NCBI RefSeq assembly: GCF_001180225.1
Contig: NZ_CVST01000034.1
Span: 1-64,000, forward strand
Source: Candidatus Pelagibacter communis
GTDB lineage: Bacteria; Pseudomonadota; Alphaproteobacteria; Pelagibacterales; Pelagibacteraceae
Direction: 5' to 3'
Length of the DNA stretch: 64,000 nt
Shown in pieces: positions 40,563 through 61,001 of the stretch. Every line of letters begins with the position of its first letter. Position 1 is the stretch's first letter. The notes under the pieces are model-generated. The model had not been told where the DNA came from, searched no databases, and saw only the letters and a list, made by a program, of their open reading frames with translations. Position numbers and translations under genes: made by a program.

Positions 40563-41602
40563 TAATATTTAATTTCCTTATTTACTTTTTTTAAAGATTT
40601 ATCAGTACCATGATGAAAATGTTTACTCATATCTGGCATGTATTTCATTGAAATTGGTTTTTTACCAATTGCAACTGACATTTCTCTAACATGATGAGCT
40701 TCGGCACCACAGCATATACCAATAAAATTTATTTTATTTTCAACACACTCTTTTGCAAATTCTGCCATTTCAAATCTGTTGCAAAATAAATTATCTAAAG
40801 CTACTGGAAATGCATTCCCACCAGGAATACAATCACAACCATGATCAGTAATATTTAAAAAACCAGGTTCTTCCTCAGTAGTTCTGTATGGAACTGGAAG
40901 CCCTGACACATGACAAGAAACTTTGTCTCGAACTTTTTTTAAAAGTTTCATCGTCATCTCTGGTCCTCTATAACAGTTTAGACCAACTACATCGGCACCT
41001 AGATCTTCCATCATCTTACATGCATCTTCAGCACTATGTCCTTCTCTAGTTTTGTCACCTCTAGGAATTGCAAAATTACAAACTGCAATTAGTCCAGCGT
41101 CCTTAATTGCTTTCAAAGCAATTTTCATTTCATCAGTCCAACTAATTGTTTCAGCAATAACAAAATCAACTCCAGCCTCTTTTGCCCAATCAACTTGCTC
41201 CTCGTACATCTGTTGACACTGCTTATGAGTATTTGCATCACCTGGATCAAACACGTTTGTGTTTGCAACATCTCCACAAACCATCAAATCTAAATCTTTA
41301 AATTCAGTTGCAGCATCTTTTGCAATTTTAAGAGCATTTTTTTGCATTGGCTCTAGCAAATGTTCTTTACCAATTATTCTCAGCTTTTCTCTATGTCCAT
41401 AATAAGTGAACGCTTGGACAACATCTGAACCAGCTCTGATAAATTCTCTATGTAATTGAGTTACTACTTCAGGATGCTCTAACACAACTTCAGGAACAAA
41501 TGGACCTGCTGAAAGATAACCTCTTCTTTCCATCGCAAAAAGATATCCTTCTGCACACATGATAGGACCCTCATTTAACCTTGTAATTAAATCTTTTTTC
41601 AT
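40562..41602 (-). CDS. bhmT: betaine-homocysteine S-methyltransferase
   Basis: This 346-aa enzyme belongs to the homocysteine S-methyltransferase family. Its zinc cysteines are C210 in GLNC and C297/C298 in GICCGAEAHH. The N-terminal GPIMCAEGYLFAMERRGYL and AGSDVVQAFTYYG segments fit the BHMT branch. It transfers a methyl group from glycine betaine to homocysteine, making methionine and dimethylglycine. Sitting between the Rieske oxygenase and the DMGDH-like gene, it links betaine use to methionine supply. Confidence 0.9.
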   Translation of the reverse strand: MKKDLITRLNEGPIMCAEGYLFAMERRGYLSAGPFVPEVVLEHPEVVTQLHREFIRAGSDVVQAFTYYGHREKLRIIGKEHLLEPMQKNALKIAKDAATEFKDLDLMVCGDVANTNVFDPGDANTHKQCQQMYEEQVDWAKEAGVDFVIAETISWTDEMKIALKAIKDAGLIAVCNFAIPRGDKTREGHSAEDACKMMEDLGADVVGLNCYRGPEMTMKLLKKVRDKVSCHVSGLPVPYRTTEEEPGFLNITDHGCDCIPGGNAFPVALDNLFCNRFEMAEFAKECVENKINFIGICCGAEAHHVREMSVAIGKKPISMKYMPDMSKHFHHGTDKSLKKVNKEIKY

Positions 41603-41613
41603 AATTTATCCTT

Positions 41614-42801
41614 TCATTTTGTTAAATTTGTTGCAACCCATTTGTGAAACATCAAAGTAGGGGTGTCCATAACAGGCGAAAAATTTCCACCATTATAAGC
41701 TGGGGAACTTCGCCCTTTTTGCATTCCTTCTACTGCAGTCACATCTTCGTTCATAACTTCTTGCCAAAATGCAAAATTTTTTTCTCTTATCATTTTAAAC
41801 TCATCGCTCGATGCGCTTTCGTCTCCAATATAATATAATTCAAAATGTTCTTTTGTCTGATTGTTTGAAATTGGTTCTAACCAAAATGCATAAAAATGAT
41901 CTATATGAATTCCCAACATTACATTTGGGTATAATGATACATATTCTGATTTTTCAGAAAGTTCTGTAGGCCAGTTTGGAAAACATTTAAATTTTATATT
42001 TCCATCAAACTGTTGTGAATATTTATTACTTCCTTGTCCAGAGAAATTAAAATTTTCATCTTCAATATGATAATGATCTGCAATATTTGAAACTCTATTT
42101 AATTCCGGATGTATCCATGGCAAATGATAACTTTCACAATAGTTCTCAATAGCAAATTTCCAATTACTATTTACTATCATATTAAAATATCCGTTATCAG
42201 CCGAATGTCTTATTAATTGTTGATCTTTTTTAGAAATAAACTTGGACCATCTATCTTCTAAAGGTTTAATAAATTCTTCAAAGGGTTTTGCATTTGAATT
42301 AATATTTATAAATATTAAATCCATCCAAACTTTTGATTTAATCTCTTTTAAGTTACTATTATTTTTATCAAACCCTTCTACATCATGTTTCCCTAGTCCT
42401 CCTATATGAGGAGTAACAGATAATTTACCATTAAAATCATAAGACCAAGAATGATAAGGACATCTAATTACATTTTTTAATTTACATTCTTGATCAACTA
42501 ATTTGAAACCTCTGTGACTACAAACATTATGAAAAACTTTTACTTCGTTCTCTTTATTTCTAACTATTAATATTGGTATCCCTAAAAGATTAAAAGGCTT
42601 TGCATCACCAGGATTTGGAACAGAGCTTGCAACTCCAATCATTGTCCAATTATTTTTAAATACTTTTTCTTTTTCAAATTCTAAGTAATCATCATTTAAA
42701 TAACACTCATTAGGTAATCCATGAGCTTTCTCTATAGGATTTTTAACAACTTCTATTTTTTTAGGATCTAAAATGTCTGATAATTTTTTATTTAAATTCA
42801 T
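41614..42801 (-). CDS. Rieske non-haem iron oxygenase, glycine betaine monooxygenase-like
   Basis: This 395-aa ring-hydroxylating-type alpha subunit has the Rieske cluster ligands C94, H96, C114 and H117 (CSHRG and CPYHSW). The mononuclear iron site shows NYCESYHLPWIHPEL near residue 190, giving the His-x4-His pair. This type includes GbcA (glycine betaine to dimethylglycine plus formaldehyde), choline monooxygenase and stachydrine demethylase. The reductase partner (GbcB type) is not in the window. It begins with AAAGGAGG three bases before the ATG and heads the operon with BHMT and copy 3. Confidence 0.85.
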   Translation of the reverse strand: MNLNKKLSDILDPKKIEVVKNPIEKAHGLPNECYLNDDYLEFEKEKVFKNNWTMIGVASSVPNPGDAKPFNLLGIPILIVRNKENEVKVFHNVCSHRGFKLVDQECKLKNVIRCPYHSWSYDFNGKLSVTPHIGGLGKHDVEGFDKNNSNLKEIKSKVWMDLIFININSNAKPFEEFIKPLEDRWSKFISKKDQQLIRHSADNGYFNMIVNSNWKFAIENYCESYHLPWIHPELNRVSNIADHYHIEDENFNFSGQGSNKYSQQFDGNIKFKCFPNWPTELSEKSEYVSLYPNVMLGIHIDHFYAFWLEPISNNQTKEHFELYYIGDESASSDEFKMIREKNFAFWQEVMNEDVTAVEGMQKGRSSPAYNGGNFSPVMDTPTLMFHKWVATNLTK

Positions 42802-43074
42802 AAACCTCCTTTAATTAATTAATTAAAAAATTAATTTAGGGTTTAAAAATTACGACTCTCTAATAATGATTTGCTGAAAAACTGTTTTACAATTTAAAAT
42901 ATAAACAAACTCTTTGAAAAAAAAATTTGCTGCAAATTTCATAATAAAACCATAACTAAATTTATTTCATATTTAAAGACAATTTGACTTCAACTTATAA
43001 TTGAATTTAATTTGCAATATTTCTCTCAATATGTTCAATTTAAATTTTAAATGAATCAATTATTGGGAGATATA
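42802..43074. promoter_or_regulatory. divergent promoter region of the betaine operon and proX
   Basis: This 273-bp AT-rich region separates the two divergent units and must hold both promoters. On the minus side the Rieske gene has the ribosome site GGAGG. On the plus side proX has GGGAG five bases before ATG 43075. I found no classic SAM or glycine riboswitch core. A loose inverted repeat TTCAA/TTGAA with a 7-nt centre lies near 42989-43005. A regulator sensing betaine or methionine may bind here. Confidence 0.5.
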
Positions 43075-44085
43075 ATGAAAATCAAAAGAATAATTCTTTC
43101 CCTAGCTGTTATTTTTGGTCTTACTTCTTTTGGAAGTGTGGCTAATGCTGCTTGTGGAAACATAACTGTCGCTAATATGAACTGGGCTTCAGCAAACTTT
43201 ATGGCTGAGGTTGATAAAATTATATTAGAGGAAGGTTACGGATGTACTGTTGAATTAGTGCCAGGTGCAACTATGCCGACTTTTACATCTATGCAAGAAA
43301 AAGGTGAGCCAGATGTAGCTCCAGAGTTTTGGGCTAATGCTGCAATCGTTGCTTTAAATAAAGCTGTTGATGAAGGCAAAATGCATTCAATCAACAAAGC
43401 TCCAATCACTGGTTTAGGTGAAGGTTGGTGGGTACTACCTGCTACTCTAGAAAAGCATCCTGAGCTAACAACTGCTGCTGCAATTTTAGAAAGACCTGAT
43501 CTGTTTCCTCACCCTGAGGATCCTTCAAAAGGTGGCTTCCACATTTGTCCTCCAGGTTGGGCTTGTGAATTAATAAACAAGCAACACTTTAAAGCTTGGG
43601 GTATGGAAGAAAAAGGTTGGGCAATTGTTGAAACTGGTTCTGCTGCAGGACTTGATGGATCAATTGCTAAAGCTGCTGAAAGAGGAGAAAACTGGTTTGG
43701 TTATTACTGGTCACCAACTTCTTTAGTAGGAAAATATAATCTTCAGTCAGTTGATATGGGAGAATGGGGTGGAAAAGATAATTGGGACAATTGTCTTGTA
43801 AAACCTGAACAAGAATGTGGTACTCCTAAAAAATCTTCATGGGTAAAATCTGAAGTATTTACAATCGCTACTGACAACTACAAGAAAACTGCTGGTGCAG
43901 ATGGTATGAGCTATTTAGAAAAAAGAACATACCCAGGTCCAGTTATGAACTCGATGTTAGTATGGATGGGAGAAAACCAAGCTGAGGGTGCAGATGCTGC
44001 AATTGAATTCCTAAAAACACAAGAAGATGTTTGGACTAAATGGGTTTCAAGTGATGCTGCTGCAAAAATAAAAAAAGCACTTTAA
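43075..44085 (+). CDS. proX: glycine betaine/osmolyte ABC transporter substrate-binding protein
   Basis: This periplasmic binding protein of the ProX/OpuAC type is 336 aa from the ATG at 43075, which has a GGGAGATATA site and begins the signal peptide (MKIKRIILSLAVIFGL, cleavage after SVANA). The mature protein has NMNWASANF near the start, and Trp-rich stretches (GEGWWVLP, GYYWSP) that could form the aromatic cage for quaternary amines. The in-frame ATG at 43051 is rejected because the later one is better. It is followed by a strong hairpin and then proW. The ATPase gene is not in the window. Confidence 0.9.
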   Translation: MKIKRIILSLAVIFGLTSFGSVANAACGNITVANMNWASANFMAEVDKIILEEGYGCTVELVPGATMPTFTSMQEKGEPDVAPEFWANAAIVALNKAVDEGKMHSINKAPITGLGEGWWVLPATLEKHPELTTAAAILERPDLFPHPEDPSKGGFHICPPGWACELINKQHFKAWGMEEKGWAIVETGSAAGLDGSIAKAAERGENWFGYYWSPTSLVGKYNLQSVDMGEWGGKDNWDNCLVKPEQECGTPKKSSWVKSEVFTIATDNYKKTAGADGMSYLEKRTYPGPVMNSMLVWMGENQAEGADAAIEFLKTQEDVWTKWVSSDAAAKIKKAL

Positions 44086-44098
44086 ATTAATGTTATTA

Positions 44099-44124
44099 TC
44101 GAACCCGTTGTAAAACGGGTTCGA
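44099..44124 (+). terminator. intercistronic hairpin between proX and proW
   Basis: TCGAACCCGTT pairs with AACGGGTTCGA around the tetraloop GTAA, giving a perfect 11-bp stem. It is followed by an A-rich sequence without a U-run, so it is probably a stabiliser of the proX message or a weak attenuator. The GTAA is a GNRA loop, which makes the hairpin very stable. Confidence 0.75.
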
Positions 44125-44142
44125 TTAGTTTAAAAATACTTT

Positions 44143-45030
44143 ATGGATTTCTTTACTAAAATTCCTGTAATGGATAGAACAGCTCTAAGAGAGCTTAAAA
44201 AAGGAATTGATTTTGGTTTCAAAGACTTTTCAAGGGCATATGGAGAAGGTATAGAAAGTTTTTTTGATCCTCTTTTATATTTTTTAATTTGGTTAGAAAA
44301 ATTATTAATCAATAGTCCGTGGCCTATAGTTATAGGTGTTTTTGCAATACTGGCTTGGATAGGTTCAAGAAGTATCAAATTAACAATTGGTACTTTGGTT
44401 TGTTTTTTAGTTATTGGTTATTTTGGGATGTGGAAAAATTGTATGGCTACTGTAGCAATAATTTCTGTAGCTACTTTAGTATGTATTGCAGTTGGTATTC
44501 CAATAGGTGTAATTATGTCAAAATCGCAAAGGGCTGAAAAAGCAATTTTACCGGTCTTGGACATGATGCAAACTATTCCAAGTTTTGTTTATTTAATTCC
44601 AATTATTATGCTACTCGGTATAGGAAAAGTTCCAGGGCTTTTAGCAGTTTGTATTTATGCCTTACCTCCAATTGTAAGGCTAACCAATCTGGGGATTAGA
44701 GAAGTAGATAAAGAAACCCTTGAAGCAAGTGAGGCTTTTGGAGCAACTCCAATGCAAAAACTTAAATCAGTTCAAATTCCATTGTCACTTCCAACAATTT
44801 TTGCTGGGATTAACCAAACGATAATGATGGCTTTAGCAATGGTTGTGATTGCATCTATGATAGGTGTAAAAGGCCTTGGAGTGCCTATTTTACAAGCTAT
44901 TTCTAACCAATATTTAGCATTAGGAATGATGAATGGTTTAGCAATTGTAGCTTTAGCAATTATATTCGACAGGGTCACTCAGCAGTACGGACAAAGAATT
45001 CAAAAGCACAGAGGTCAGCTTAAGAAGTAA
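44143..45030 (+). CDS. proW: glycine betaine/proline ABC transporter permease
   Basis: This 295-aa ProW-type permease has a hydrophobic core from about residue 60. The EAA-type loop that docks the ATPase is EASEAFGATPMQKLKSVQIPLS near residue 195 (partly quoted). The later MVVIASMIGVKGLG segment is a family signature. It is downstream of proX with a hairpin between them. No ATPase (ProV) gene follows; the next two genes are folate-linked enzymes, so the ATPase must be encoded elsewhere. Confidence 0.93.
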   Translation: MDFFTKIPVMDRTALRELKKGIDFGFKDFSRAYGEGIESFFDPLLYFLIWLEKLLINSPWPIVIGVFAILAWIGSRSIKLTIGTLVCFLVIGYFGMWKNCMATVAIISVATLVCIAVGIPIGVIMSKSQRAEKAILPVLDMMQTIPSFVYLIPIIMLLGIGKVPGLLAVCIYALPPIVRLTNLGIREVDKETLEASEAFGATPMQKLKSVQIPLSLPTIFAGINQTIMMALAMVVIASMIGVKGLGVPILQAISNQYLALGMMNGLAIVALAIIFDRVTQQYGQRIQKHRGQLKK

Positions 45031-45087: not shown

Positions 45088-45816
45088 ATGAATTTTTCTT
45101 TAGAGATTGGTCCAAAAACAGATCTTGAAACTTTGCCTCCATTAGGTGATGTCTATATCACTATGCTTCCAGGAGGAGATTATAAAGAAACAGCAGACAA
45201 AGCAGTGGAACTCGTAAAAAAAGGTTTCAATCCAGTTCCACATTTTCCAGCAAGATCTATGCATGATGATAGTCAACTAAAAGATTACGTTACAAGATGT
45301 AAAGATGGAGGGGTTAAGCAGGCTCTAATTATTGGAGGAGGAAGAGAACCTCTAGGAAAATTTGATAGTTCATTTCAACTTTTAGAAACAGGTTATTTTG
45401 AAAAAATGAAAATAGGAATAGCTGGACATCCTGAAGGGAGTCCAGATATATCCGATACAGATTTAGAAAAAGCAATGATAGATAAAAAGCCTTACGCTGA
45501 TTATATAGTAACACAGTGGTTATTAGATCCTCAGCCTATCATTGATTTTATTTCTAAACAAAGCGTACCAGTGCATGTCGGAATCACTGGGCCCTTAAAA
45601 ATATCTAGCTTAATTAAATTTGCTAATATCGTTGGGGCAAAAAATTCCTTAAACTTTCTTAAATCTAATTTTAGTAAGGCGTTAGATTTATTGAAACCTA
45701 AAGACCCTAATGATTTAATTGGGAAAGTTAAATCGCACACTGATAACTTCCACATTTATACATTCGGCGGCTTGAAGGAAACTAACAAGTGGTTGAGGGA
45801 GAATAGTTATGTCTAA
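45088..45816 (+). CDS. methylenetetrahydrofolate reductase-like protein
   Basis: This 242-aa TIM-barrel protein resembles MetF but is shorter than the usual 290-300. Its GDVYITMLPGGDYKETADKA and GFNPVPHFPARSMHDDSQL segments fit family strands 1 and 2, and GYFEKMKIGIAGHPEG near residue 105 is the classic MTHFR motif. It could oxidise or reduce the C1 unit on folate. The gene overlaps by 8 bp the GcvT/DmdA-like gene, so the two surely act together: the latter moving a methyl to THF, this one converting methyl-THF. Confidence 0.8.
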   Translation: MNFSLEIGPKTDLETLPPLGDVYITMLPGGDYKETADKAVELVKKGFNPVPHFPARSMHDDSQLKDYVTRCKDGGVKQALIIGGGREPLGKFDSSFQLLETGYFEKMKIGIAGHPEGSPDISDTDLEKAMIDKKPYADYIVTQWLLDPQPIIDFISKQSVPVHVGITGPLKISSLIKFANIVGAKNSLNFLKSNFSKALDLLKPKDPNDLIGKVKSHTDNFHIYTFGGLKETNKWLRENSYV

Positions 45817-47167
45817 TGAATTTGACTATACTAAATTAAAACATGTTACTTCTGTTGATCAGTCAGACAGAGAAGTACCATACAACTTAAGACAAAGTGG
45901 GCCAACAAAAGTTGAAATGTTAATTTCAACAAGGGTAAGAAAATCACCTTATTGGCATTTATCAATGCAGGCAGGTTGTTGGAGAGCAACTGTATACAAT
46001 CGTATTTATCACCCAAGAGGTTACGTGAAACCTGAAGATGGTGGAGCTATGGTTGAATACGATGCGATCGTAAACCATGTAACAATGTGGAACGTTGCTG
46101 TTGAAAGACAAATAAGAGTTAAGGGTCCAGATGCAGAAAAATTTACTGACTATGTGATCACAAGAGATGCAACTAAAATTTCACCAATGAGAGCAAGATA
46201 TGTAATTTTATGTAATGCTTATGGTGGAGTTTTAAATGATCCAATTCTTTTAAGAATATCTGAAGATGAATTTTGGTTTTCATTATCAGACTCTGATATT
46301 GGAATGTATCTTCAAGGTGTAAATGCAGATGGAAGATTTAATTGTACAATTGAAGAAATTGATGTGAGTCCAGTCCAAATTCAAGGTCCTAAATCAAAAG
46401 CATTGATGAAAGATTTATGTGGAGATCAAGTGGATTTTGACAACATGCCTTTCTACGGATTAGCTGAAGCTAAAATTGGTGGAAGAGATGTTGTAATTTC
46501 ACAATCTGGTTTCTCAGGAGAGGCTGGTTATGAAATTTATCTAAGAAACTCTACTTTATATGCTGAGGACATGTGGAATGCTGTGCTTGATGCTGGAAAA
46601 AAACACAGCTTAATGGTTATTGCTCCTGCTCACCATAGAAGAATTCAAGCAGGAATTCTTTCATGGGGACAAGACATGGATCAACAACACAATCCGTTTC
46701 AATGTAATTTAGGTTATCAAGTTTCTTTGTCTGGAAAAGGAGAATGGAACAAAACCGCTGATTATGTTGGTAAGGCTGCACTAGAAAAGATGAAAGAGGA
46801 GTTAAAAGCAGGTAAAAAACCATACAAACTTCAACTAGTTGGTATGGAATTGGGTGGCAAACCTATTGATAATTATGCGCCTGACTTTTGGTTAGTTTCT
46901 CCTGAAAGTGGTGGAGATCCAGTAGGATTTTTAACATCACCATGGTGGCATCCTGAGAAGAAAACAAACATTGCAATGGGATATGTTCCTTTTGATGGAA
47001 CATTAAATGCAAATGGTTTTCCAAAAGGAAAAGTAGGAACTAAATACAAAGTTCATCTACCTGCAGAATATTCAGACACACCAGGAACACCTGTTGATGC
47101 TGTAGTAGTGGATATTCCATTTAAAGAGTCTTTCAACGCAAATACTAGAGAAGTTGTAGCAGGCTAA
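45809..47167 (+). CDS. GcvT/DmdA-like folate-dependent methyltransferase
   Basis: This 452-aa protein of the aminomethyltransferase family is about 80 residues longer than GcvT or the DMSP demethylase DmdA. About residues 60-400 hold the domain; VQIQGPKSKALMKDL near 190 and SGFSGEAGYEIYLRNSTLY near 230 (partly) are family motifs. A GAGGGAG ribosome site precedes the start, and translation is coupled to the MTHFR-like gene. Transfer of a methyl group from an imported osmolyte to THF is the likely role. It is not clearly DmdA itself. Confidence 0.8.
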   Translation: MSNEFDYTKLKHVTSVDQSDREVPYNLRQSGPTKVEMLISTRVRKSPYWHLSMQAGCWRATVYNRIYHPRGYVKPEDGGAMVEYDAIVNHVTMWNVAVERQIRVKGPDAEKFTDYVITRDATKISPMRARYVILCNAYGGVLNDPILLRISEDEFWFSLSDSDIGMYLQGVNADGRFNCTIEEIDVSPVQIQGPKSKALMKDLCGDQVDFDNMPFYGLAEAKIGGRDVVISQSGFSGEAGYEIYLRNSTLYAEDMWNAVLDAGKKHSLMVIAPAHHRRIQAGILSWGQDMDQQHNPFQCNLGYQVSLSGKGEWNKTADYVGKAALEKMKEELKAGKKPYKLQLVGMELGGKPIDNYAPDFWLVSPESGGDPVGFLTSPWWHPEKKTNIAMGYVPFDGTLNANGFPKGKVGTKYKVHLPAEYSDTPGTPVDAVVVDIPFKESFNANTREVVAG

Positions 47168-47319: not shown

Positions 47320-47864
47320 TGTTTGGTGAATTTTTAAATATAATTTTCAAATCAATAAAATTAGATAAAACACTTTATTCTGATAACAGAAATTTTGGTG
47401 AAGCTTCCATATATTTTGCGGGATTGATAATGATTTTAGATGGAGTTGCTGGCGCAGTAGCAGCTAACACTGTCATTAAAACAGCAATAGGAATGTCTGG
47501 TCTAACAGCAATAGTTACTTGGCTAATATGGGCGATCTTTATTTTTGTGATAGGTGTTAAACTTTTTCCAGATAAACAAACCAAAGTATCATTTAAAAAA
47601 GTTTTAACTGCAGTTGGTTTTGCTCATGCTCCTGGCTTACTAAGATTTTTTGCAGTAACTCCAGATTTAATGATACCTATAATTTTTCTTACTCAATTTT
47701 GGATTTTCGCAGGTTTAATCATTTCAACAAAAGAAATTTTAAATTTAAAATCTAATTTTAAATCTTTTGGTATAGTCTTATTATCTTTTTTGATAATAGC
47801 TTTTCTATCAATTACATTCGTAATGAGTAGAATGAACATGCTTCCAACTAATCAGATTAGCTAG
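47319..47864 (+). CDS. Yip1-like integral membrane protein
   Basis: This 181-aa protein has five predicted helices, and an early soluble segment (FKSIKLDKTLYSD) followed by an AASIYFAGLIMILDG-type helix, resembling the Yip1 domain family. It is translationally coupled to the 36-aa peptide. Its TAG stop shares CTAG with the stop of the convergent small zinc-ribbon gene. Function unknown; Yip1-domain proteins in bacteria are membrane proteins of unclear role. Confidence 0.7.
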   Translation: MFGEFLNIIFKSIKLDKTLYSDNRNFGEASIYFAGLIMILDGVAGAVAANTVIKTAIGMSGLTAIVTWLIWAIFIFVIGVKLFPDKQTKVSFKKVLTAVGFAHAPGLLRFFAVTPDLMIPIIFLTQFWIFAGLIISTKEILNLKSNFKSFGIVLLSFLIIAFLSITFVMSRMNMLPTNQIS

Positions 47865-48028
47865 ATTGGAAAAATAGTCTTTGAAACTCTACACGATTTA
47901 CAAATTTTAAAGCCAGTTAAAATTAAATTTTGAGATACACTCTCATCCTCTTCTTTACACTCATCACAAATATTATTTAAATCTTCAATGTTATCTTGAT
48001 CCTTAATTTCATCAAAATTATCAGTCAT
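47861..48028 (-). CDS. small double-CxxC protein (55 aa), zinc-ribbon-like
   Basis: ATG at 48028 begins MTDNFDEIKDQDNI, followed by two Cys pairs, CDEC (residues 21-24) and CKSC (residues 43-46), separated by about 18 residues. That is the spacing of a small zinc ribbon. The ORF is below usual gene-finder cut-offs. The start overlaps the DUF3726 stop by 8 bp, and its own stop shares the palindrome CTAG with that of the Yip1-like gene. Both facts support expression with the DUF3726 gene. A role as zinc-binding partner of that set is inferred. Confidence 0.65.
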   Translation of the reverse strand: MTDNFDEIKDQDNIEDLNNICDECKEEDESVSQNLILTGFKICKSCRVSKTIFPI

Positions 48029-48632
48029 TATCTGTTAAGCCTGCACCTGCACCACCTTGTTTTAAACTCTCAGACTCTTCAACAAAAGTATCTTCAGATA
48101 ATTTGTACAAATTCTTCCACTCTTCCTCCGAAAAGCTATCAATATTTTCTAGAAAACTAATCTCTAAATGATTTGCAACAGAGGGAAATTCGTTATTAGC
48201 AATATTAGAATAAATATTTAAATTCAAATTTAAAATAATTTCTTTTTTATCAAAATTTATTTGAATTTTTTTGCCAATAATTTCTGATGCTCTACTTACA
48301 AAAGCTAAAAATATTGAAGGATAAGCAACATTATTTAGCTCAATTTTTTTTAATAATTCCAAAGATTTTGATTGGTCTAAAAAACTAACTCCAAGAATAA
48401 TTGGACAATAAGGTTTTGCTGGAGGTTGATTTTTTTCTAATATTAAATTTAAATTTTGAAAACTATTTTCTTTCCTTTGAGAAAAATATTTATTTATATG
48501 CTTAATACCAGGAAGACCAAAGGACTCTAACAGTCTTACGCACTTTGCTGTTTCTTCAGCAACTCCCCATGAATATCCGCTAGCTTTAGTTGCTCTTTTA
48601 ACAGTAGTTTCGATTTCACTTAATGATTTCAT
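48021..48632 (-). CDS. DUF3726 family protein
   Basis: From the ATG at 48632 this is 203 aa and opens with MKSLSEIETTVKRA and KASGYSWGVAEETAKCVRLLESFGLPG (partly), the N-terminal signature of DUF3726. The ATG at 48668 would extend it into the preceding gene. The function of the family is unknown. The protein is soluble and mildly acidic, without clear catalytic motifs. It lies between the 553-aa unknown and the zinc-ribbon ORF, and the overlaps show one operon. Confidence 0.8.
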   Translation of the reverse strand: MKSLSEIETTVKRATKASGYSWGVAEETAKCVRLLESFGLPGIKHINKYFSQRKENSFQNLNLILEKNQPPAKPYCPIILGVSFLDQSKSLELLKKIELNNVAYPSIFLAFVSRASEIIGKKIQINFDKKEIILNLNLNIYSNIANNEFPSVANHLEISFLENIDSFSEEEWKNLYKLSEDTFVEESESLKQGGAGAGLTDND

Positions 48633-48633
48633 G

Positions 48634-50295
48634 TTAAATGCTAGTTTTATAAACCCACTGCTCATCATAATTTTTTAATTCATGAGGTAATGGTGCTCCT
48701 TGAAACATACAAATTCTTAACCACTTGTCAGATCTTGGGTCAAATTTTAACGCCCCAAAGAAAGATAGCTTCAATCTCAACATATCAATAGGCATTATGT
48801 TTTTACCAATTGTATTATCTTGAATTTCTGAATAAGGAAATTTTTCAACTATAAAAACCCTTCTAATAACATGTCTTAAATCAGAGTTTTTTATTAAAAA
48901 GTCAGATACGGTTTGACTATTTTTAGAAACCAATAATATTTCGTAAAGTTTTTTTATATCTCTAGCTATGGCTAAAGGTTGTTCTAATTCTGAACCATGT
49001 TCTTCAAATCTATCAGCTAATCTTGGCTCTTCTTTATTTTTGGAGATAAACCAAAAATTTTGATTATTTTCTTTTTTTTCAAAATTAATTTCTAAAATAT
49101 TTGGATATTTTTTCTCAATTATATTTCTTAAATCTTCAACAGTTCGATGAGCTGGTATGTTAAAATATTTTTCTTCATCAGAGCTCATTTCTTTTACTAA
49201 AGGCTCAGTTATTTCACTATATGGTTCCATCATAATGGATACAACATACTCAATACATTCTTCACATGTTTCTTGCTCAAGCCACTCATAAATGCTATTG
49301 AAAGGATATTCCCTTGTAAAATCAAAATCATTCTCAATAAATTTCAAAAATTTTTGAACATCTTTCAGTAGATTATTAATTTTATTTTTTTGATATTCAC
49401 TATCAGTGCTCCAGCTTGTAATATTTGTTAGTGATTTTTTTACACAATCAATAAAAAGTTCACTATCATTTTTATTTACATCTTTAATTTCTCTAATTTT
49501 TTTTAAAGCTATTTCTCTACTTAAGATCCAGTTATTTAAAAGTGTTGGATGATTAACAATAAAAGGTGCCATTCCTAATCCGGTAGAATTTCCAATACCT
49601 AGATTTTTAGAGATTTGCTTGTCTAGTTTGACTGCTTTTTTTGGGTTTTTATGATAAGCAACATGATTTACTTGGTCAAAAGTGAACTGTCTTACAAGAT
49701 AAACTAGCATCATTTCTAATCTAAATGGTCCGTTAATTTCCTCACGATTTTTTATTCTAAACCTATCTGCTAAACCAAATTTACCAGATCCATAAACAGC
49801 AGTAGTTCTGTATAAATAACCAACTTTTGATAATAAATTCAAATCTGGTTGAAATCCTTGACTTAAACTCTCTGTTACATGATTAAATAGTCTTACAGAT
49901 TTATTTGCTCTTGATAATGTAAGTTCTTTATAAGAAAGTCTTCCAACTTCTTGTTTGGGAACTTCATTTTTTAATCTTTCAATATCTTTTTTGCCTGGTA
50001 CACCATCGTGAAGTGTAAAAGCTGCATCCCACTTAGTAGCTATAACCCTGTCTGATCTTTCTTCATCTTCTATATGATTTGCAAAACAAACTAATGAATA
50101 AACTCTTTTGTCCTTTTTAAATGAATAAACTGCCTCACCATAACCATTTTCATCTAAATTAAACAAATCTTGTTTATATTCCCAGTCTTTAAATTCATTC
50201 AAAAAACTTCTTAAAAAAGATAGTTTAGATTGATGAAAAGATCCCAAACGAGATAATTTCATAATAATATTTGGATCTCTTAGTTCTACTTGCAT
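48634..50295 (-). CDS. large hypothetical protein (553 aa), operon with DUF3726
   Basis: I do not recognise a fold. The protein is soluble, without signal peptide. Its N-terminal third has a WDAAFTLHDGVPGKKDIERL stretch near residue 90 and a KVGYLYRTTAVYGSGKFGLADR region near 160; the middle has paired Cys (ETCEECIEYV, about 328-337) and many Lys/Glu helices; the end (GKNIMPIDMLRLKLSFFGALKFDPRSDKWLRICMFQ region) looks conserved. It lies 3 bp after the M19-like gene and 1 bp before the DUF3726 gene, so the three are one unit. Confidence 0.7.
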   Translation of the reverse strand: MQVELRDPNIIMKLSRLGSFHQSKLSFLRSFLNEFKDWEYKQDLFNLDENGYGEAVYSFKKDKRVYSLVCFANHIEDEERSDRVIATKWDAAFTLHDGVPGKKDIERLKNEVPKQEVGRLSYKELTLSRANKSVRLFNHVTESLSQGFQPDLNLLSKVGYLYRTTAVYGSGKFGLADRFRIKNREEINGPFRLEMMLVYLVRQFTFDQVNHVAYHKNPKKAVKLDKQISKNLGIGNSTGLGMAPFIVNHPTLLNNWILSREIALKKIREIKDVNKNDSELFIDCVKKSLTNITSWSTDSEYQKNKINNLLKDVQKFLKFIENDFDFTREYPFNSIYEWLEQETCEECIEYVVSIMMEPYSEITEPLVKEMSSDEEKYFNIPAHRTVEDLRNIIEKKYPNILEINFEKKENNQNFWFISKNKEEPRLADRFEEHGSELEQPLAIARDIKKLYEILLVSKNSQTVSDFLIKNSDLRHVIRRVFIVEKFPYSEIQDNTIGKNIMPIDMLRLKLSFFGALKFDPRSDKWLRICMFQGAPLPHELKNYDEQWVYKTSI

Positions 50296-50298
50296 AAC

Positions 50299-51264
50299 TT
50301 AAATTGATTTATAAAAATTGTACCAATTATTTCCTAGTATTCCATGTGTCTCATTATCTGAAAATCCAATCTTTTTGAGACCTTTTTCTATATTTGAAAA
50401 TCCTCTTGTGTCCTCAAACCAATCTGGTTGTTTTGGAAAGCCTGGTTTATTTTTTGATCCTTCTCCATAATTTTTAGTTTTGGTCCAAGTACCATTTCTC
50501 ATCCACTCAACTACGCTGTCAGGTTGATCAAGACAAAGATCTGACCCTATACCAATTTTACTTGCTCCCATAATTTCTGCAGTCTTTGCCACCATTTCAC
50601 AAAAACTATCAAGAGTACAATTAGTATTTTCTTTCAAGTGATGTGGATATAAAGATAAACCTAACATTCCTCCACTATCACTGAGCATCTTAAGCAAATC
50701 TGAAGACTTGTTTCTTTTTGCAGCATGCCAAAAAGAAGGGTTTGCATGTGTAATCGCAATTGGTTTTTCACTTATTTCAATTGCATCCATTGTACTTTTT
50801 TCTGCAGAATGAGACATATCAACAACGATTCCTACTCTATTCATTTCTTTTATTGCTTCTCTTCCAAAATTAGTTACTCCGCTATCAATTTTTTCATAGC
50901 AACCGGTAGCAAGAAGAGATTGATTGTTGTAAGTTAGTTGCATAAATCTGCATCCAAGTTCATGAACTTTTTCAACCAAACCTATGTCATCCTCAATTGG
51001 TGAACAATTTTGAAAACCAAAAAATATTGCAGTTTTGTTTTCAAGTTTTGCTTTTTCAATATCTTTAAAATCTTTTCCCAGAAATATAAGATCAGAATTT
51101 GCTTCAAAAATTTTTTCCCACTTATTTAATTCTATTAGTAGTTCATCATAATCTTCATGATAAACTATTGTTACATGAACTGCATCTAAACCTGCAGCTC
51201 TGTTTATTTCAAAAATTTTTCTAGACCAATTGCAATATTGCAAATTATCGATTTTAAAATTCAT
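50299..51264 (-). CDS. divergent M19 membrane-dipeptidase-family protein
   Basis: This 321-aa TIM-barrel protein belongs to the renal dipeptidase (M19) family. H152 in VVDMSH and H173 in THANPS match two of the zinc ligands. The usual N-terminal H-x-D motif is absent (the region reads IDNLQYCNW), and Q85 in FFGFQN occupies the place of the bridging Glu. Three of five ligands are thus changed, so it may hold one metal or none and act on something other than dipeptides. It begins the unit with the 553-aa unknown and the DUF3726 gene. Confidence 0.78.
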   Translation of the reverse strand: MNFKIDNLQYCNWSRKIFEINRAAGLDAVHVTIVYHEDYDELLIELNKWEKIFEANSDLIFLGKDFKDIEKAKLENKTAIFFGFQNCSPIEDDIGLVEKVHELGCRFMQLTYNNQSLLATGCYEKIDSGVTNFGREAIKEMNRVGIVVDMSHSAEKSTMDAIEISEKPIAITHANPSFWHAAKRNKSSDLLKMLSDSGGMLGLSLYPHHLKENTNCTLDSFCEMVAKTAEIMGASKIGIGSDLCLDQPDSVVEWMRNGTWTKTKNYGEGSKNKPGFPKQPDWFEDTRGFSNIEKGLKKIGFSDNETHGILGNNWYNFYKSI

Positions 51265-53831: not shown

Positions 53832-54578
53832 ATGATCGGAATTTTAGGTGGAATGGGTACTCAAGCTGGTCTTGATTTTTGCAATAAGCTAGCGGTACTA
53901 AATAGAGGTAAAATTGATCAAGAGTATCCTTTATTTGTTTTGTATAACAAATCAAATATTCCTGGAAGACCAGAATCTATAGGAACTCAAACAAAAAACT
54001 TATCAAATCTAAATACAAACAAATCTAATAAAACTAAATATAATAAAGTATTAAAAAGTCTTCTTGAAGGATGTAAGTTATTAGAAAAGAATAAATGCAA
54101 ATTTATTGTTATCCCATGTAACACTGCACATTATTGGTTTGATGATCTACAAAAAAAAATCAATATTCCAATTATAAATATGCCAAAAGAAGTTTTTAAA
54201 TTTACAAAAAAGAACTGTAAAAAAAATTCAAAAGTTGGTTTATTGGCCACTGAAGGTACTTTAAAAACTGGGGTGTATAATAAATTTTTTGATCAGAGCT
54301 ATCAATTGGTTAATCCATCTGAAAATCTTCAAAAAAATTCAGTAAATAAAGCAATCAAGTTTGTAAAAATGGGCAATGTTAGAGCTGCCGAAAAAGCTAT
54401 CAAACCAGCTATAAAATATTTGCTAAAAATGAAATGTAAAAAAATAATTTTAGGTTGTACTGAGTTGCCAATTGCAATATTTGCTTTTAAATCATTCAAG
54501 AATATTAAATCTTCAAAGATATTTTTAGATCCAAATTTAATTCTTGCCCACTCTGCAATGCAGAAACACAAAAGATAA
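53832..54578 (+). CDS. aspartate/glutamate racemase family protein
   Basis: This 248-aa protein belongs to the Asp/Glu racemase superfamily. It opens MIGILGGMGTQAGLDF, and both catalytic cysteines are in place: VIPCNTAHYW near residue 97 and LGCTELPI near 210. It probably interconverts L- and D-aspartate or a related acid. It begins a small unit with the unknown 146-aa gene and an EamA permease. Confidence 0.88.
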   Translation: MIGILGGMGTQAGLDFCNKLAVLNRGKIDQEYPLFVLYNKSNIPGRPESIGTQTKNLSNLNTNKSNKTKYNKVLKSLLEGCKLLEKNKCKFIVIPCNTAHYWFDDLQKKINIPIINMPKEVFKFTKKNCKKNSKVGLLATEGTLKTGVYNKFFDQSYQLVNPSENLQKNSVNKAIKFVKMGNVRAAEKAIKPAIKYLLKMKCKKIILGCTELPIAIFAFKSFKNIKSSKIFLDPNLILAHSAMQKHKR

Positions 54579-55894: not shown

Positions 55895-56482
55895 TTACTT
55901 TGCAATATATCCAAATTCTAAAGATGCATCTGTTATTGAGTGATAAAGAGATTCACCAAAACTTCTTAATCCAAATATTCTAAATTTATCTGGATCATCA
56001 TCAAGCATATCAATAGTTACTGACATTCCGTTATAAGTAGAATTTAAACATTGATTTTTTTCAAGTTCACCAAAATTAAATGGGCATCCTTTTTTTAAAA
56101 CTTCCTTGGCTTCCTTACCTTCAATTTCAATTATTGCTTTTGAATGAGATATGTCTGTTATTGCAAATTCATTATCATTAAATTTTTGCTCTATTTCATT
56201 TAAAATATCTTTTTTCTTAGAAACTAAAATCCAATTTCTTGGACCGTTCCAAAGTATTCTTGTGTTATCATTGGAGCTAACTAAAGATGGATTGTCTCTT
56301 AAATTTAGACCATCTACCTGCATATTGTCTAATGATGAGTTTGAACTTTTAAACTGAACTATCTGTACAATTAATAAATTAGTACTTTCAGATATTGAGA
56401 GTAAATTGTTATCATCTTTACCTTCAAAATCTCCAAATTGACCTTTTGCATGCACATTATTTAAAGCTGAAATTAAACTCAT
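55895..56482 (-). CDS. soxG: sarcosine oxidase gamma subunit
   Basis: This 195-aa protein is the gamma subunit of heterotetrameric sarcosine oxidase. It has the gamma-type [13 protein letters not shown] segment near residue 75 and [22 protein letters not shown] near 107 (partly), which mirrors the GcvT-like fold of this subunit. It overlaps soxA by 4 bp and ends the soxBDAG operon. The subunit is structural, stabilising the alpha-beta pair. Confidence 0.88.
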
Positions 56483-59475
56483 GATCTAACTCTCTCTCCT
56501 TTTGGATCAACATAATGTGATGAAACTATTTCTACTGGAATAACTTTGTTTTTTAATGGAGACATTACAAATAATTTTTCTCCAATCATATTTTTTCCAT
56601 CTTTTAATATTGCTAGTGAAAATGGATTATCATACTCAACACTCCAACAAGAGGCTGAGATATGACCTAATTTTTTATTCGGCAAAGGAGCATTGGCGTC
56701 TTTAACTAAATGTGAACCTTCTGGAATACTAGTTTTTTTATCCAATGGAACAACGCCTACAATTCGCTGTCTATCTTCAGCAACAAAAGCTGCTCTCTGC
56801 AATGATCTTTTTCCAATAAAATCTTTCTTTTTACTCAATAATCCTTCTAAAGCATTGTCGTAAGGAATTGTTCTTCCATCTAATTCAGAACCTGCAACAT
56901 GCCCCATTTCAATTCTAAGTGTAGACAATGCTTCAGTTCCATATGGTTGAATTTGAAACTCTTCTCCAATTTCAATTATTTTTTCCCACATAAATCTTCC
57001 GTTATCAGACTCAACATTAACTTCGTAAGCTAATTCACCTGAGAATGAAATTCTGAAGATTCTAGCTTTAACACCAAATAAATCACCCTCAACATATCCC
57101 ATAAACGGGAGACCTTCATTAGACACATCTGTTTTAGGGAACAATTTCTGTAATAAATCTCTTGATTTAGGACCAGCTATGGCAGCTCCTGCCCATTGCT
57201 CAGTTGTTGAAACTACATTTACATTAAGTTCAGGCCAAACAAGTTGCAAATAATACTCTAAATGCGAAAGCACATTAGCTGCTTGAGCAGTAGTTGTTGT
57301 CATGTGATAGTGGTTTTCTGAAATTCTAGTAGTTGTACCATCATCCATCACTATCCCATCTTCTCTTAACATCACTCCATATCTTGCTTTTCCAACAGGT
57401 AACTTCAACCATGCATTTGTGTATACTCTGTTTAAAAATTCTGCAGCATCAGGACCCTTAACGTCAATCTTACCAAGTGTTGTTACGTCACAAACACCAA
57501 CGTTTGTTCTTACATTTTTCGCTTCTCTTTTTGAAGCTTCGAACAAAGTTTCGTTTCCTCTTTTATAATATCTTGGTCTTAACCAAACTCCTGCATCAAC
57601 AAAAACAGCGTTATGCTCTTCATGCCAATTGTGAATTGGAGATTTTCTAGTTGGTTTTGAATGCTTTCCTACTTCTCTACCAACGATAGCACCGATAGAA
57701 ATAGGTGTATAAGGAGGTCTAAAAGTAGTGTGGCCAACGGAAGGAACAACTTTATTTTCAATCTCAGATACTAATTGTAATCCATTTAAATTACTTGTTT
57801 TTCCTTGGTCTGTTGCCATACCTAAAGTGGTATATCTTTTTACATGTTCGATTGATCTATAACCTTCTCTTAATGCAATCTCTACATCAGAAACAGCAAC
57901 ATCATTTTGAAAATCTAAAAATCTTTTATAACTTTTACCTTTTGGTAATGGAACACACCAAAACTTATCATGTTTAGAATATTTTTTTTCAACTACATTT
58001 GGAATAGATATTTCGTTATCTTTCTCGGTAATTTTTTTTGATAATTCTTTTCCTTTTTCAAATGATGTTTTTAAAGTTTCTTCTAGAGTAAACACACCGT
58101 TAGCGGCTCCCAAAGTTGTTTCATTTTGTTTTGAAACTCCTGGAACAAACGCGTCTATCTCTTCATTAAATTTAGTTTTATTTCCTGATTGTGATGCCAA
58201 ATGAATTGTAGGTGTCCAAAATCCAGAAACACATATACAATCACAAACTATGTTTTCTATGTTGCCAAGTGTTTTCTTATCTTCAGAAATAGTTGCCACA
58301 TCAGCTGATTTTACTTTTTTATAACCTTGTGCTGCAACTACTACATATGAATTTTTAATATTAATTCCTAAATTTTTTGCTTCATCTATAATTTCTGATT
58401 GTGGATTTGATCTTGAATCTAAAACTATAGGCTCAATACCATGTTTTTTAAATTCAATTGCAGTTTCATAGCCGCTATCATTGTTTGTAAATACTAAAGG
58501 TTTTTTTCCAACCAAGACACCATAAACTTTTAAATATTCTTTAGCTGCAGATGAAAGCATCACTCCAGGAGTATCATTATTTCCAAAAACAATTGGTCTT
58601 TCAATTGAACCAGATGAAATTAGAACTTCTTTTGCTCTAATGTACCAAAGTCTTTTATTTGGATGATATTTTTTAGTTTTAGGTAAATGATCACTAACTT
58701 TTTCAGACATTACTAACATGTTGTGATCATAGTATCCAAAAACTTGAGATCTATTTTTAACGGTTACATTTGGCATCTCTTTCAATTCTGAAATGATACC
58801 GTCTGCCCAATCTTTTCCGGATTGGTTACCGATATTCACATCACTCGTTAATAGTGAGCCACCATACCTTGGTTTATCTTCAGCTAAAATAACTTTGGCT
58901 CCATTTTTGGCAGCAGAATAAGCGCTCGCTAAACCTGATGGTCCAGATCCAGCAATTAAAAGATCGCAATACTCATATTTATGTTCGTATCTTTCTTTAT
59001 CATGTTTTGTTGAAGCTACTCCTAATCCAGCTGCTTTTCTTATAAATGGCTCATAAATTTTATACCAAAAGCTTTTTGGCCACATAAAAGTTTTGTAATA
59101 AAATCCTGCAGGTAAAAATATTTTTAAAAAATTATTTATTGCTCCAATATCAAAGTTAACACTTGGCCAACAATTAACACTGCTTGCCTCTAATCCTTCA
59201 AATAATTCTTGTTCAGTTGCTTTAATGTTTGGCTCCGTTTCACCATTTCTATAAAGTTGAACAACTGCATAGGGTTCATCAACTCCTGCACCAAAAAACC
59301 CTCTGGGTCTGTGATATTTAAAACTTCTACCAACTAAATGAACACCATTTGCAAGTAAAGCTGAAGCTAATGTATCACCCTCATAACCAAAATAAGATGT
59401 ACCGTTGAACTTAAAAGAAATTTTTTTATTTCTATTTATTAAACCACCTGTTTCTATTCGATAACTCTGAGTCAT
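56479..59475 (-). CDS. soxA: sarcosine oxidase alpha subunit
   Basis: This 998-aa alpha subunit combines a 2Fe-2S-ferredoxin-like N-terminal part ([14 protein letters not shown] near 60), a disulfide-oxidoreductase-like FAD/NAD domain ([18 protein letters not shown] near 173) and a C-terminal GcvT-type folate domain ([12 protein letters not shown] near 865). It oxidises sarcosine to glycine with beta, passing the C1 unit to THF. Its length equals known alpha subunits. It overlaps soxD and soxG. Confidence 0.95.
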
Positions 59476-59744
59476 TAAGCAATTTCTTCGTTAGCTTTAT
59501 AAGTTTTAAAAATTTCATGTGTTGCAGTATCCCTTTCAACTTTAATCCACTGTCTACAACCAGATAAATGCTGCCAAAGTTCTAAATGTTTTCCTCTGGG
59601 ACTAACTCTATTATATACGAAATTATCCCATTCTTGATCTGTGACTTCTTTATTTAGTTCTGGTCTTTTAACAGTAGCATCTCCACCATAAGAAAATTCA
59701 TTTTGAGATCTCATTCCACAATGTGGGCATTTAATATGTAACAT
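59475..59744 (-). CDS. soxD: sarcosine oxidase delta subunit
   Basis: This 89-aa protein is the zinc-binding delta subunit. It opens HIKCPHCGMRSQNEFSYGGDA, with the CPHC pair, and the third Cys is in LSGCRQW near residue 63. It overlaps soxA and follows soxB with no gap, as in most sarcosine oxidase operons. It is essential for assembly. Confidence 0.95.
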   Translation of the reverse strand: MLHIKCPHCGMRSQNEFSYGGDATVKRPELNKEVTDQEWDNFVYNRVSPRGKHLELWQHLSGCRQWIKVERDTATHEIFKTYKANEEIA

Positions 59745-61001
59745 TTATGAAATCCAAGTTTTTGTACCAAGACCTTTTTCATCAATAAGATGACCGGTAC
59801 TAAATCTATTCAAACTATATCCTGCATTTAATTCATGTACTCTATCTTGAGCAATAGTATGTGCAAATGTCCATCCTGATGCTGGAGTTGCTTTAAAGCC
59901 TCCGTAACACCATCCACAATTTAAATACAAACCTTCAATGTGAGTTTTGTCTATTATTGGTGAACCATCCATTGACATGTCCATGATCCCGCCCCAAGTT
60001 CTAAGCATTTTTAATTTACTTAAAAATGGCATCATCGCAATTCCTTCAGTTAAAACATGTTGTAGTGTTGGAAGATTACCTCTTTGAGCATAACTGTTGT
60101 AACCATCAAGGTCTCCACCCATTACCATTTCACCTTTATCTGATTGACTAATATAAAAGTGACCTGCACCAAATGTTACAACTTTATCTAAAACTGGTTT
60201 AACTGGTTCAGAAACACAAGCTTGTAAAAGATGCGTTTCAATTGGCAAAGTCATATTTAATTTTTCAGCTAAAATATTTGTGCTACCTGCAACGCAAAGA
60301 CCAACTTTTTTTGCCTTAATATTTCCTCTAGATGTTCTGATCCCTTTTATTTTTCCTGCAGAAACATCAAAACCTGTAACTTCACAATTTTGAATTATAT
60401 CTACTCCCATTGAGTCTGCTTGACGTGCATACCCCCAAGCAACTGCATCATGACGAGCAGTTCCAGCGCTTGGTTGCATCAATCCACCAAAGATTGGAAA
60501 CCTTACGTTATCTGAAAAATCAGCCATTGGAATTAATTCTTTTACTTCTTCTCTGTTTAAAAGAACTGCATCAATTCCATTTAATCTCATCGAATTTCCT
60601 CTTCTTGCGTATGCATTCATTTGTGCATCTGAGTGCGCAAGATTAATTATTCCTCTTGGAGAAAACATCACGTTGTAATTTAAGTCCTGACTCATTTTTC
60701 TCCATAGATCCATTCCAAACTCACTGAAAAGACCATTTTCATCATGCATGTAATTTGATCTGATAATTGTAGTGTTACGTCCAACGTTTCCACCGCCAAT
60801 CCATCCTTTTTCAATGATGGCTACTTTTGTAATTTGATGTTCTTTAGCTAGATAATATGCGGTAGCTAGACCATGACCACCGCCCCCGATGATAACAACG
60901 TCATACTCTTCTTTAGGATTTGGATCTTTCCAAGCTAAATCCCAATTTTGATGGCCAGTTAATGCATTTTTAACTAAGCTAAAAATAGAATACTTTTGCA
61001 T
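59745..61001 (-). CDS. soxB: sarcosine oxidase beta subunit
   Basis: This 418-aa flavoprotein has the FAD motif YDVVIIGGGGHGLATAYYLA near residue 33. His in RHDAVAWGYAR near residue 179 matches the covalent FMN attachment site. It oxidises the N-methyl group of sarcosine. It is first in soxBDAG, and its divergent neighbour across 124 bp is fhs, which fits a shared control of C1 metabolism. Confidence 0.95.
   Translation of the reverse strand: MQKYSIFSLVKNALTGHQNWDLAWKDPNPKEEYDVVIIGGGGHGLATAYYLAKEHQITKVAIIEKGWIGGGNVGRNTTIIRSNYMHDENGLFSEFGMDLWRKMSQDLNYNVMFSPRGIINLAHSDAQMNAYARRGNSMRLNGIDAVLLNREEVKELIPMADFSDNVRFPIFGGLMQPSAGTARHDAVAWGYARQADSMGVDIIQNCEVTGFDVSAGKIKGIRTSRGNIKAKKVGLCVAGSTNILAEKLNMTLPIETHLLQACVSEPVKPVLDKVVTFGAGHFYISQSDKGEMVMGGDLDGYNSYAQRGNLPTLQHVLTEGIAMMPFLSKLKMLRTWGGIMDMSMDGSPIIDKTHIEGLYLNCGWCYGGFKATPASGWTFAHTIAQDRVHELNAGYSLNRFSTGHLIDEKGLGTKTWIS

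Follow-up and report, generated by a model that had tools for sequence, protein, structure and literature searches.

A conserved M19–UNK–DUF3726 gene core in SAR11 bacteria, probably serving homarine catabolism

Homarine (N-methylpicolinate) is among the osmolytes found at high concentration in diatoms, and Ruegeria pomeroyi takes it up fast, according to the available part of PMC12817926. N-methylglutamate dehydrogenase (Mgd) takes part in its catabolism, as stated in the accessible portion of PMC13390433, which cites Ferrer-Gonzalez et al. 2026. Here we describe a locus in a 64,000-nucleotide stretch of Candidatus Pelagibacter communis DNA (contig NZ_CVST01000034.1; hereafter the window; G+C 31%; host genome assembly G000 of 1.02 Mb, completeness 74%). 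Its nearest named matches come from uncultured Pelagibacteraceae. The locus encodes an M19-family amidohydrolase (M19), a 553-aa protein (UNK) and a DUF3726 protein, together called the trio. The trio probably forms the heart of a module that breaks down an N-methylated heterocyclic betaine, with homarine as the most likely substrate; as a real conserved catabolic core, it is most likely a SAR11 form of the homarine pathway. This reading builds on gene linkage, on enzyme families and on the grouping of linked SoxA proteins with Mgd; the substrate, the order of the steps and the action of UNK and DUF3726 as one enzyme are proposed from these observations.

Trigonelline degradation (tgn, Acinetobacter) handles an N-methylpyridinium carboxylate through aldehyde dehydrogenase and hydrolase steps such as those proposed here. 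To our knowledge it involves no UNK, DUF3726 or Mgd, and it releases methylamine. In the SAR11 strain HTCC1062, two soxBDAG sets exist and one of them was postulated as Mgd, with which one left unclear (Sun et al. 2011, PMC3160333, accessible text). The trio is not mentioned in that portion of the paper. By gene order and annotation only, the flanks of the window match its metF plus aminomethyltransferase (AMT) pair (SAR11_1264/1265) and its soxB2D2A2G2 set (SAR11_1281-1284).

The initial annotation presented the trio and a small neighbouring gene as four tightly packed genes. Their coordinates and family matches are as follows.

50299..51264, minus strand: M19-family amidohydrolase, 321 aa (Pfam PF01244 Peptidase_M19, 236.7 bits, cut-off 26)
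48634..50295, minus strand: UNK, 553 aa (no Pfam or NCBIfam family)
48021..48632, minus strand: DUF3726 protein, 203 aa (PF12525, 76.7 bits, cut-off 22.1)
47861..48028, minus strand: zinc-ribbon-like CxxC...CxxC protein, 55 aa (no Pfam family at E 1)

These coordinates and the gene order were borne out on the sequence, with a 3-bp gap between M19 and UNK, a 1-bp gap between UNK and DUF3726, and an 8-bp overlap of DUF3726 with the zinc-ribbon gene. The open reading frame list starts DUF3726 at 48668; its relatives begin at the equivalent of the ATG at 48632. Within a set of 80 related loci, M19 was present in 80, UNK in 80, DUF3726 in 79 and the zinc ribbon in 76, and the spacing was identical to that of the window in 62 of the 76 loci carrying all four genes. 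Substitutions relative to the window were concentrated at codon position 3 in all four genes (for UNK, differences of 0.117, 0.050 and 0.357 at the successive codon positions). Because the differences pile up at third positions, all four genes are real and under purifying selection, and their description as a coherent unit holds.

The distribution of the genes was then followed in 81 UNK loci including the window, which were picked from matches, are not a random sample and include close relatives: 18 from the SAR11 order, 51 from other Alphaproteobacteria, 5 from outside the class and 7 divergent (hence 74 non-divergent). M19 lay within 5.7 kb of UNK in 76/81 loci (SAR11-order 18/18, other alphaproteobacterial 47/51, outside the class 5/5, divergent 6/7). 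A search by tblastn placed DUF3726 near UNK in 18/18 SAR11-order and 46/51 other alphaproteobacterial loci. The same search gave 0/5 outside the class, where UNK is followed in four of the five loci by a reading frame of suitable size, and all three frames scanned match Pfam DUF3726. At the genome level, UNK was found in 40 of 61 SAR11-order genomes (the window's included), and in 11 of 18 when only genomes of 90% completeness or more are counted. Among 385 Alphaproteobacteria, UNK occurred in 53 and DUF3726 in 43, and all 43 genomes with DUF3726 carry UNK as well (lists compared by eye). A sample of the phylum yielded UNK in 29/398 genomes, 9 of them outside Alphaproteobacteria. Given the 43/43 and 76/81 counts, independent occurrence of the genes, which the initial annotation had named as a refuting observation, was not found. 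Meanwhile, the 55-aa protein was near UNK in 11/18 SAR11-order loci and 0/63 others, and among the loci surveyed it was seen only in the SAR11 family of the window; it had no NCBIfam assignment and one chance match (E 0.13). So the core of the proposed four-gene unit stands as M19-UNK-DUF3726, and the zinc-ribbon-like protein is a SAR11-family accessory outside it.

Gene neighbourhoods in other genomes allow a pathway to be assigned with fair confidence, where previously none had been. The roseobacter order is LysR, aldehyde dehydrogenase (ALDH), M19, BCCT, UNK, DUF3726 and, frequently, Ldh_2. Outside the class, LysR, ALDH, M19 and BCCT each lie within 5.7 kb in 5/5 loci, one of them on a Vibrio plasmid, so that the set there is LysR, ALDH, M19, BCCT and UNK. 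Aminobacter has LysR, ALDH, M19, UNK, DUF3726 and Ldh_2 plus a betaine ABC transporter. Two loci (L181 and L182), from genomes of 1.4 Mb, show OpuAC, permease, ATPase, ALDH, M19, UNK and DUF3726 in a single run; the OpuAC and permease of these loci group with the copies of the window. In another SAR11 family, Ldh_2 and ALDH are convergent with the trio (L236, L237); at L237, SoxBDA, M19, UNK, DUF3726, Ldh_2 and ALDH adjoin, with SoxBDA beside M19. Across the 51 other alphaproteobacterial loci, the 5.7-kb surroundings contained ALDH in 24, Ldh_2 in 25, BCCT in 12 and OpuAC in 7, and 23 of these 24 ALDHs fall in the operon-ALDH clade of the tree. BCCT or OpuAC lies within 6 kb of UNK in 30/74 non-divergent loci. 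The linkage of ALDH and Ldh_2 is therefore common, not universal. Compared with the homarine pathway, the SAR11 locus has no ALDH, BCCT or LysR and has the zinc ribbon and ABC/GcvT/MTHFR neighbours; the two would share Mgd as a step (Ferrer-Gonzalez et al. 2026, via the available part of PMC13390433), and each would be a conserved operon in marine bacteria.

The enzyme families of the linked genes narrow the chemistry. All five operon ALDHs scanned scored best on the alpha-ketoglutarate-semialdehyde and 2,5-dioxovalerate dehydrogenase models, at 442-504 bits and below the cut-offs of 750 and 770. The closest entry to the Ldh_2 protein of Ruegeria sp. TM1040 is delta1-piperideine-2-carboxylate reductase (1wtj, 4.8e-53), an enzyme which also makes N-methyl amino acids. 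The Ldh_2 gene that follows DUF3726 in Phaeobacter inhibens DSM 17395 (L191:16396-17399) matches in two pieces, is missing from the gene table and may be broken.

Around the trio, the window holds further genes as follows.

43051..45030, plus strand: OpuAC binding protein and permease, betaine-type ABC uptake (Pfam OpuAC, BPD_transp_1), convergent with the trio
45088..47167, plus strand: MTHFR-like and DmdA/GcvT-like aminomethyltransferase (Pfam, NCBIfam), convergent with the trio
55895..61001, minus strand: SoxBDAG-like set, placed with Mgd (NCBIfam, tblastn, SoxA tree)

Betaine uptake next to the trio, as first noted, is thus confirmed by Pfam. The pair at 45088..47167 looks like SAR11_1264/1265 of HTCC1062, and an MTHFR-GcvT pair is near UNK in 11/18 SAR11-order loci. 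Upstream of the four genes lie purE and purK, then a few other genes, then the SoxBDAG set; a gene of the Asp/Glu/hydantoin racemase family (53832-54578) sits between the purine genes and SoxBDAG.

Within the sox set of the window, NCBIfam soxB and soxA were over the cut-off and soxG below it, and SoxD was detected by tblastn. Of the 74 non-divergent loci, 15 have Sox genes no more than 10.5 kb from UNK. A SoxA tree of 44 rows was built with a midpoint root; its rows share ancestry and are not independent events. A branch with 100/100 support places 21 rows on one side, including 6/6 UNK-linked rows (the window's included) and 4/4 rows linked to Mgs, a label (N-methylglutamate-synthase-like) resting on match shape and on distance, with Mgs 4-11 kb from these four rows. 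The other side has 23 rows, none of them UNK- or Mgs-linked, and includes the second SAR11 set. The sister group of three of the four Mgs-linked rows consists of three UNK-linked rows from roseobacters and a single unlinked row. By SoxA sequence, the linked 'sarcosine oxidase' genes, those of the window included, group with Mgd. Of the two SAR11 sox sets, the tree points to the one near the trio as Mgd, a choice left open in the accessible text of Sun et al. 2011 (PMC3160333). A regulator carrying AraC-type helix-turn-helix and DJ-1 domains separates the operon from the Sox genes in two roseobacters. The mgdABCD genes of Ruegeria pomeroyi adjoin tmaR, a regulator of the AraC type, and this link persists in strains lacking the upstream trimethylamine (TMA) genes (PMC13390433, available part).

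The proposed pathway would run as follows. Homarine would enter via a BCCT or OpuAC-type transporter. UNK, proposed as the ring-attacking enzyme subunit, would attack and open the ring with DUF3726 as partner subunit. M19 would then hydrolyse the opened product, for example by N-formyl removal, which would make it a hydrolase, such as an N-deformylase, of a ring-opened intermediate. ALDH would oxidise a C5 2-imino-5-oxo acid, the DpkA-like reductase would make N-methylglutamate, and Mgd would convert this to glutamate and a one-carbon unit. A precursor yielding N-methylglutamate is suggested because a C5 2-imino-5-aldehyde, an imine reductase and Mgd come together. Going from the seven carbons of homarine to the six of N-methylglutamate means losing one, for example as formate from an N-formyl intermediate, a release in which the M19 hydrolase would have a role.

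The homarine operon of Ferrer-Gonzalez et al. 2026 (Nat Microbiol 11:1531) is reportedly named homABCDER and is reported to include SAR11. LysR-ALDH-M19-BCCT-UNK-DUF3726 would fit such a name of five genes plus R. No mention of homABCDER was found in the literature searched. We infer that the operon described here is the published homarine operon. The system is probably no longer 'undescribed', and that label, given by the initial annotation, is probably outdated, because homarine catabolism involving Mgd has already been published (PMC13390433, accessible portion).

Several points weigh against this reading. ALDH is absent within 5.7 kb from 27 and Ldh_2 from 26 of the 51 other alphaproteobacterial loci, some of whose contigs end early. 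When the operon ALDH was compared with the 61 SAR11-order genomes, the best identity was about 30-39% among the matches listed, which included no operon-type ALDH in the window's family. All twelve Ldh_2 paralogues of that family placed in the tree fall outside the main linked clade. The ALDH adjacent to the trio in the other SAR11 family is betaine-aldehyde-dehydrogenase-like and belongs to a different clade; as a candidate operon ALDH it was rejected by the tree and the family models. As to the Mgd link, some 6 kb, holding purine genes and others, separate the SoxA of the window from UNK; L190 forms a long branch in the tree, and several rows including the window's have unusual composition. 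Genome G039 combines the trio with Ldh_2 and ALDH, yet the only SoxA match in it (L277) is on the non-Mgd side; the contig bearing the trio stops next to M19, at the place where SoxB stands in G050. The survey of Mgd-side SoxA linkage covered UNK-bearing genomes only. Because no operon-type ALDH was seen among the matches listed, the Ldh_2 paralogues placed lie outside the linked clade and the ALDH of the other family is of another kind, one of two things must hold for the window's family: the ALDH and reductase steps are served by non-orthologous enzymes elsewhere, or the later steps of the route differ.

Other substrates were also considered. It is unlikely that the module degrades a different N-methyl amino acid or betaine ending in N-methylglutamate, such as N-methylproline or proline betaine via N-methylglutamate semialdehyde. 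The betaine-type transporters, the semialdehyde dehydrogenase relative and the Mgd-side SoxA would fit such a route too, and Rieske genes lie within 5.7 kb in 3/51 other alphaproteobacterial and 4/18 SAR11-order loci. However, this Rieske linkage is the exception, and proline betaine breakdown, from general knowledge, needs no M19 hydrolase, imine reductase or 553-aa protein. Somewhat less probable again is a repurposing of the SAR11 trio, in which the methyl group would pass to folate via the GcvT/MTHFR pair and the product would not be N-methylglutamate. The retention of that pair near the trio in the SAR11 order would agree with it, as would a SAR11 family without operon-type ALDH (among the matches listed) or main-clade Ldh_2. 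Against it, the UNK and M19 of the window are 59-60% and 68-69% identical to those of the ALDH-containing operons L181/L182, and the Mgd-side SoxBDAG is kept nearby. Service in glycine betaine, dimethylglycine or sarcosine breakdown is the least probable of all: the window does hold Rieske oxygenase, homocysteine S-methyltransferase and DMGDH-like genes, at 38157-42801 and elsewhere, and the nearest solved M19 relative is 2i5g, which we take to be PA5396 beside the Pseudomonas dimethylglycine genes, but DMGDH lies within 5.7 kb of UNK in only 7/51 other alphaproteobacterial and 0/18 SAR11-order loci and so has no regular linkage, the linked SoxA falls with Mgd rather than with the other set, and, from general knowledge, no alpha-ketoglutarate-semialdehyde-like ALDH would be needed.

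The three genes side by side at 38157-42801 are a probable glycine betaine demethylation set in their own right. Three dimethylglycine/sarcosine-dehydrogenase-like FAD plus GcvT proteins occur in the window, at 10295-12724, 28241-30673 and 38157-40562.

The individual proteins of the trio were also inspected. The M19 protein, for which NCBIfam gave no assignment (as for the DUF3726 protein), matches 2i5g at 8.2e-57. It belongs to the same Pfam family as the M19 renal-type dipeptidases and keeps two His and one Asp (His152, His173 and Asp242, in 74/74 operon M19 proteins aligned), but differs from them in having no HxD motif and no bridging Glu: Leu8 replaces the HxD His and Gln85 the bridging Glu in 74/74, and no acidic residue is listed at position 10. 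In the alignment, 2i5g likewise lacks both. We take the HxD and bridging Glu of M19 enzymes to be the alpha-metal ligands and the two His and the Asp to be the rest of the site. By alignment, the alpha-metal site has been lost in all 74 aligned copies; the suspected loss of zinc ligands is hence upheld, and as a family-wide trait.

The claim that the 553-aa protein has no recognised fold also survived. UNK matched no Pfam family at E 1 and no NCBIfam family; a Pfam scan of 50 members gave nine matches, each in a single member, at E 0.0026 and worse, and the 50-member profile against PDB sequences returned weak helical matches only (E 0.029 and worse). No credible relative of UNK thus emerged from Pfam, NCBIfam or PDB sequences, profile searches included. 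No UNK relative appeared in a scan of viral contigs, and a nucleotide search of E. coli genomes with the UNK gene of TM1040 (TM1040_RS02335) gave no match. An AlphaFold2 (AF2) model built from 50 sequences, none of them below 85% identity to the first, reached a predicted local distance difference test score (pLDDT) of 49.

The DUF3726 protein, of which no mention was found in the literature searched, could be traced further. The copy of the window has no Ldh_2 (PF02615) match in Pfam at E 1. Among partners from outside the class, that of L264 matches both DUF3726 and Ldh_2 (Ldh_2 41.4 bits against a cut-off of 38.8), that of L263 matches both with Ldh_2 at 36.2 bits, below the cut-off, and that of L261 matches DUF3726 only; the Ldh_2 matches in L264 and L263 span the first 135-137 model positions. 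Profile comparison of DUF3726 with Ldh_2 (hhalign) gave a probability of 82.9%, and the same DUF3726 profile against PDB sequences found no Ldh_2 chain. The AF2 model of the window's protein has a pLDDT of 65.8, with residues 181-203 below 50. Foldseek with this model was weak (best E 0.034, ureidoglycolate dehydrogenase). VIA-align returned a top 15 all from the Ldh_2 family at Z 7.4-9.1, six of them reaching Z 8, the next entry being at 4.1. About 160-173 model residues are aligned across approximately residues 2-313 of Ldh_2 targets near 340. DUF3726 therefore looks like a cut-down Ldh_2 fold, similar in the model to DpkA and to ureidoglycolate and sulfolactate dehydrogenases. Unlike these, it has only about 200 aa, and from lengths and aligned ranges the nucleotide-binding part seems to be gone.

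It further differs from the Ldh_2 family in a conserved C-terminal tail of its own. The protein overall diverges faster than the neighbouring genes, and its best conserved part is the extreme C-terminus, AGAGxxDND (window 48021-48083). The tail was checked in 65 partners of the 74 non-divergent loci (three lacked a fitting frame and six were not included): all 65 had the AG motif (63 by script pattern, two by eye) and 39 terminate in DND. Because the tail is conserved yet modelled with low confidence, it may be ordered by a partner protein. Tentatively, UNK-DUF3726 could be a new class of heterocycle-opening enzyme, in which UNK would supply an unseen catalytic fold and DUF3726, an Ldh_2-type dehydrogenase stripped of its nucleotide-binding domain, would extend its tail into UNK and so build or gate the active site; divergent copies, such as the S. 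meliloti type, would open other rings.

A second copy of UNK is present in two genomes (G312 and G214, loci L219 and L220), paired with a shorter partner of 172-178 aa that keeps the AG tail; M19 is near this copy in L220 and not in L219. In S. meliloti (L194:11944-15390), a divergent UNK with 24% identity to that of the window is accompanied by an M19 and by a partner in which SRRHAGPI and an acidic stretch are found. It adjoins an ABC transporter, an aminotransferase, a succinate-semialdehyde dehydrogenase and two RidA genes, and is likely a sister module with another substrate. Trigonelline was rejected as that substrate: growth of S. meliloti on it needs pSymA (PMC4207669, accessible part), and the copy lies on a 1.64-Mb replicon taken to be pSymB.

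What is new here is the Ldh_2 likeness of DUF3726, its C-terminal tail, the loss of the M19 metal site and a UNK without credible relative. If the homarine reading is true, UNK and its cut-down dehydrogenase partner would represent new biochemistry opening an N-methylpyridinium ring, and if the UNK-DUF3726 reading also holds, the trio would be a general module for N-heterocycles. There would also be a tree-based answer to which SAR11 'sarcosine oxidase' operon is Mgd, as asked in 2011. SAR11, among the most abundant bacteria of the surface ocean, could then use homarine as a source of carbon, nitrogen and a one-carbon unit.

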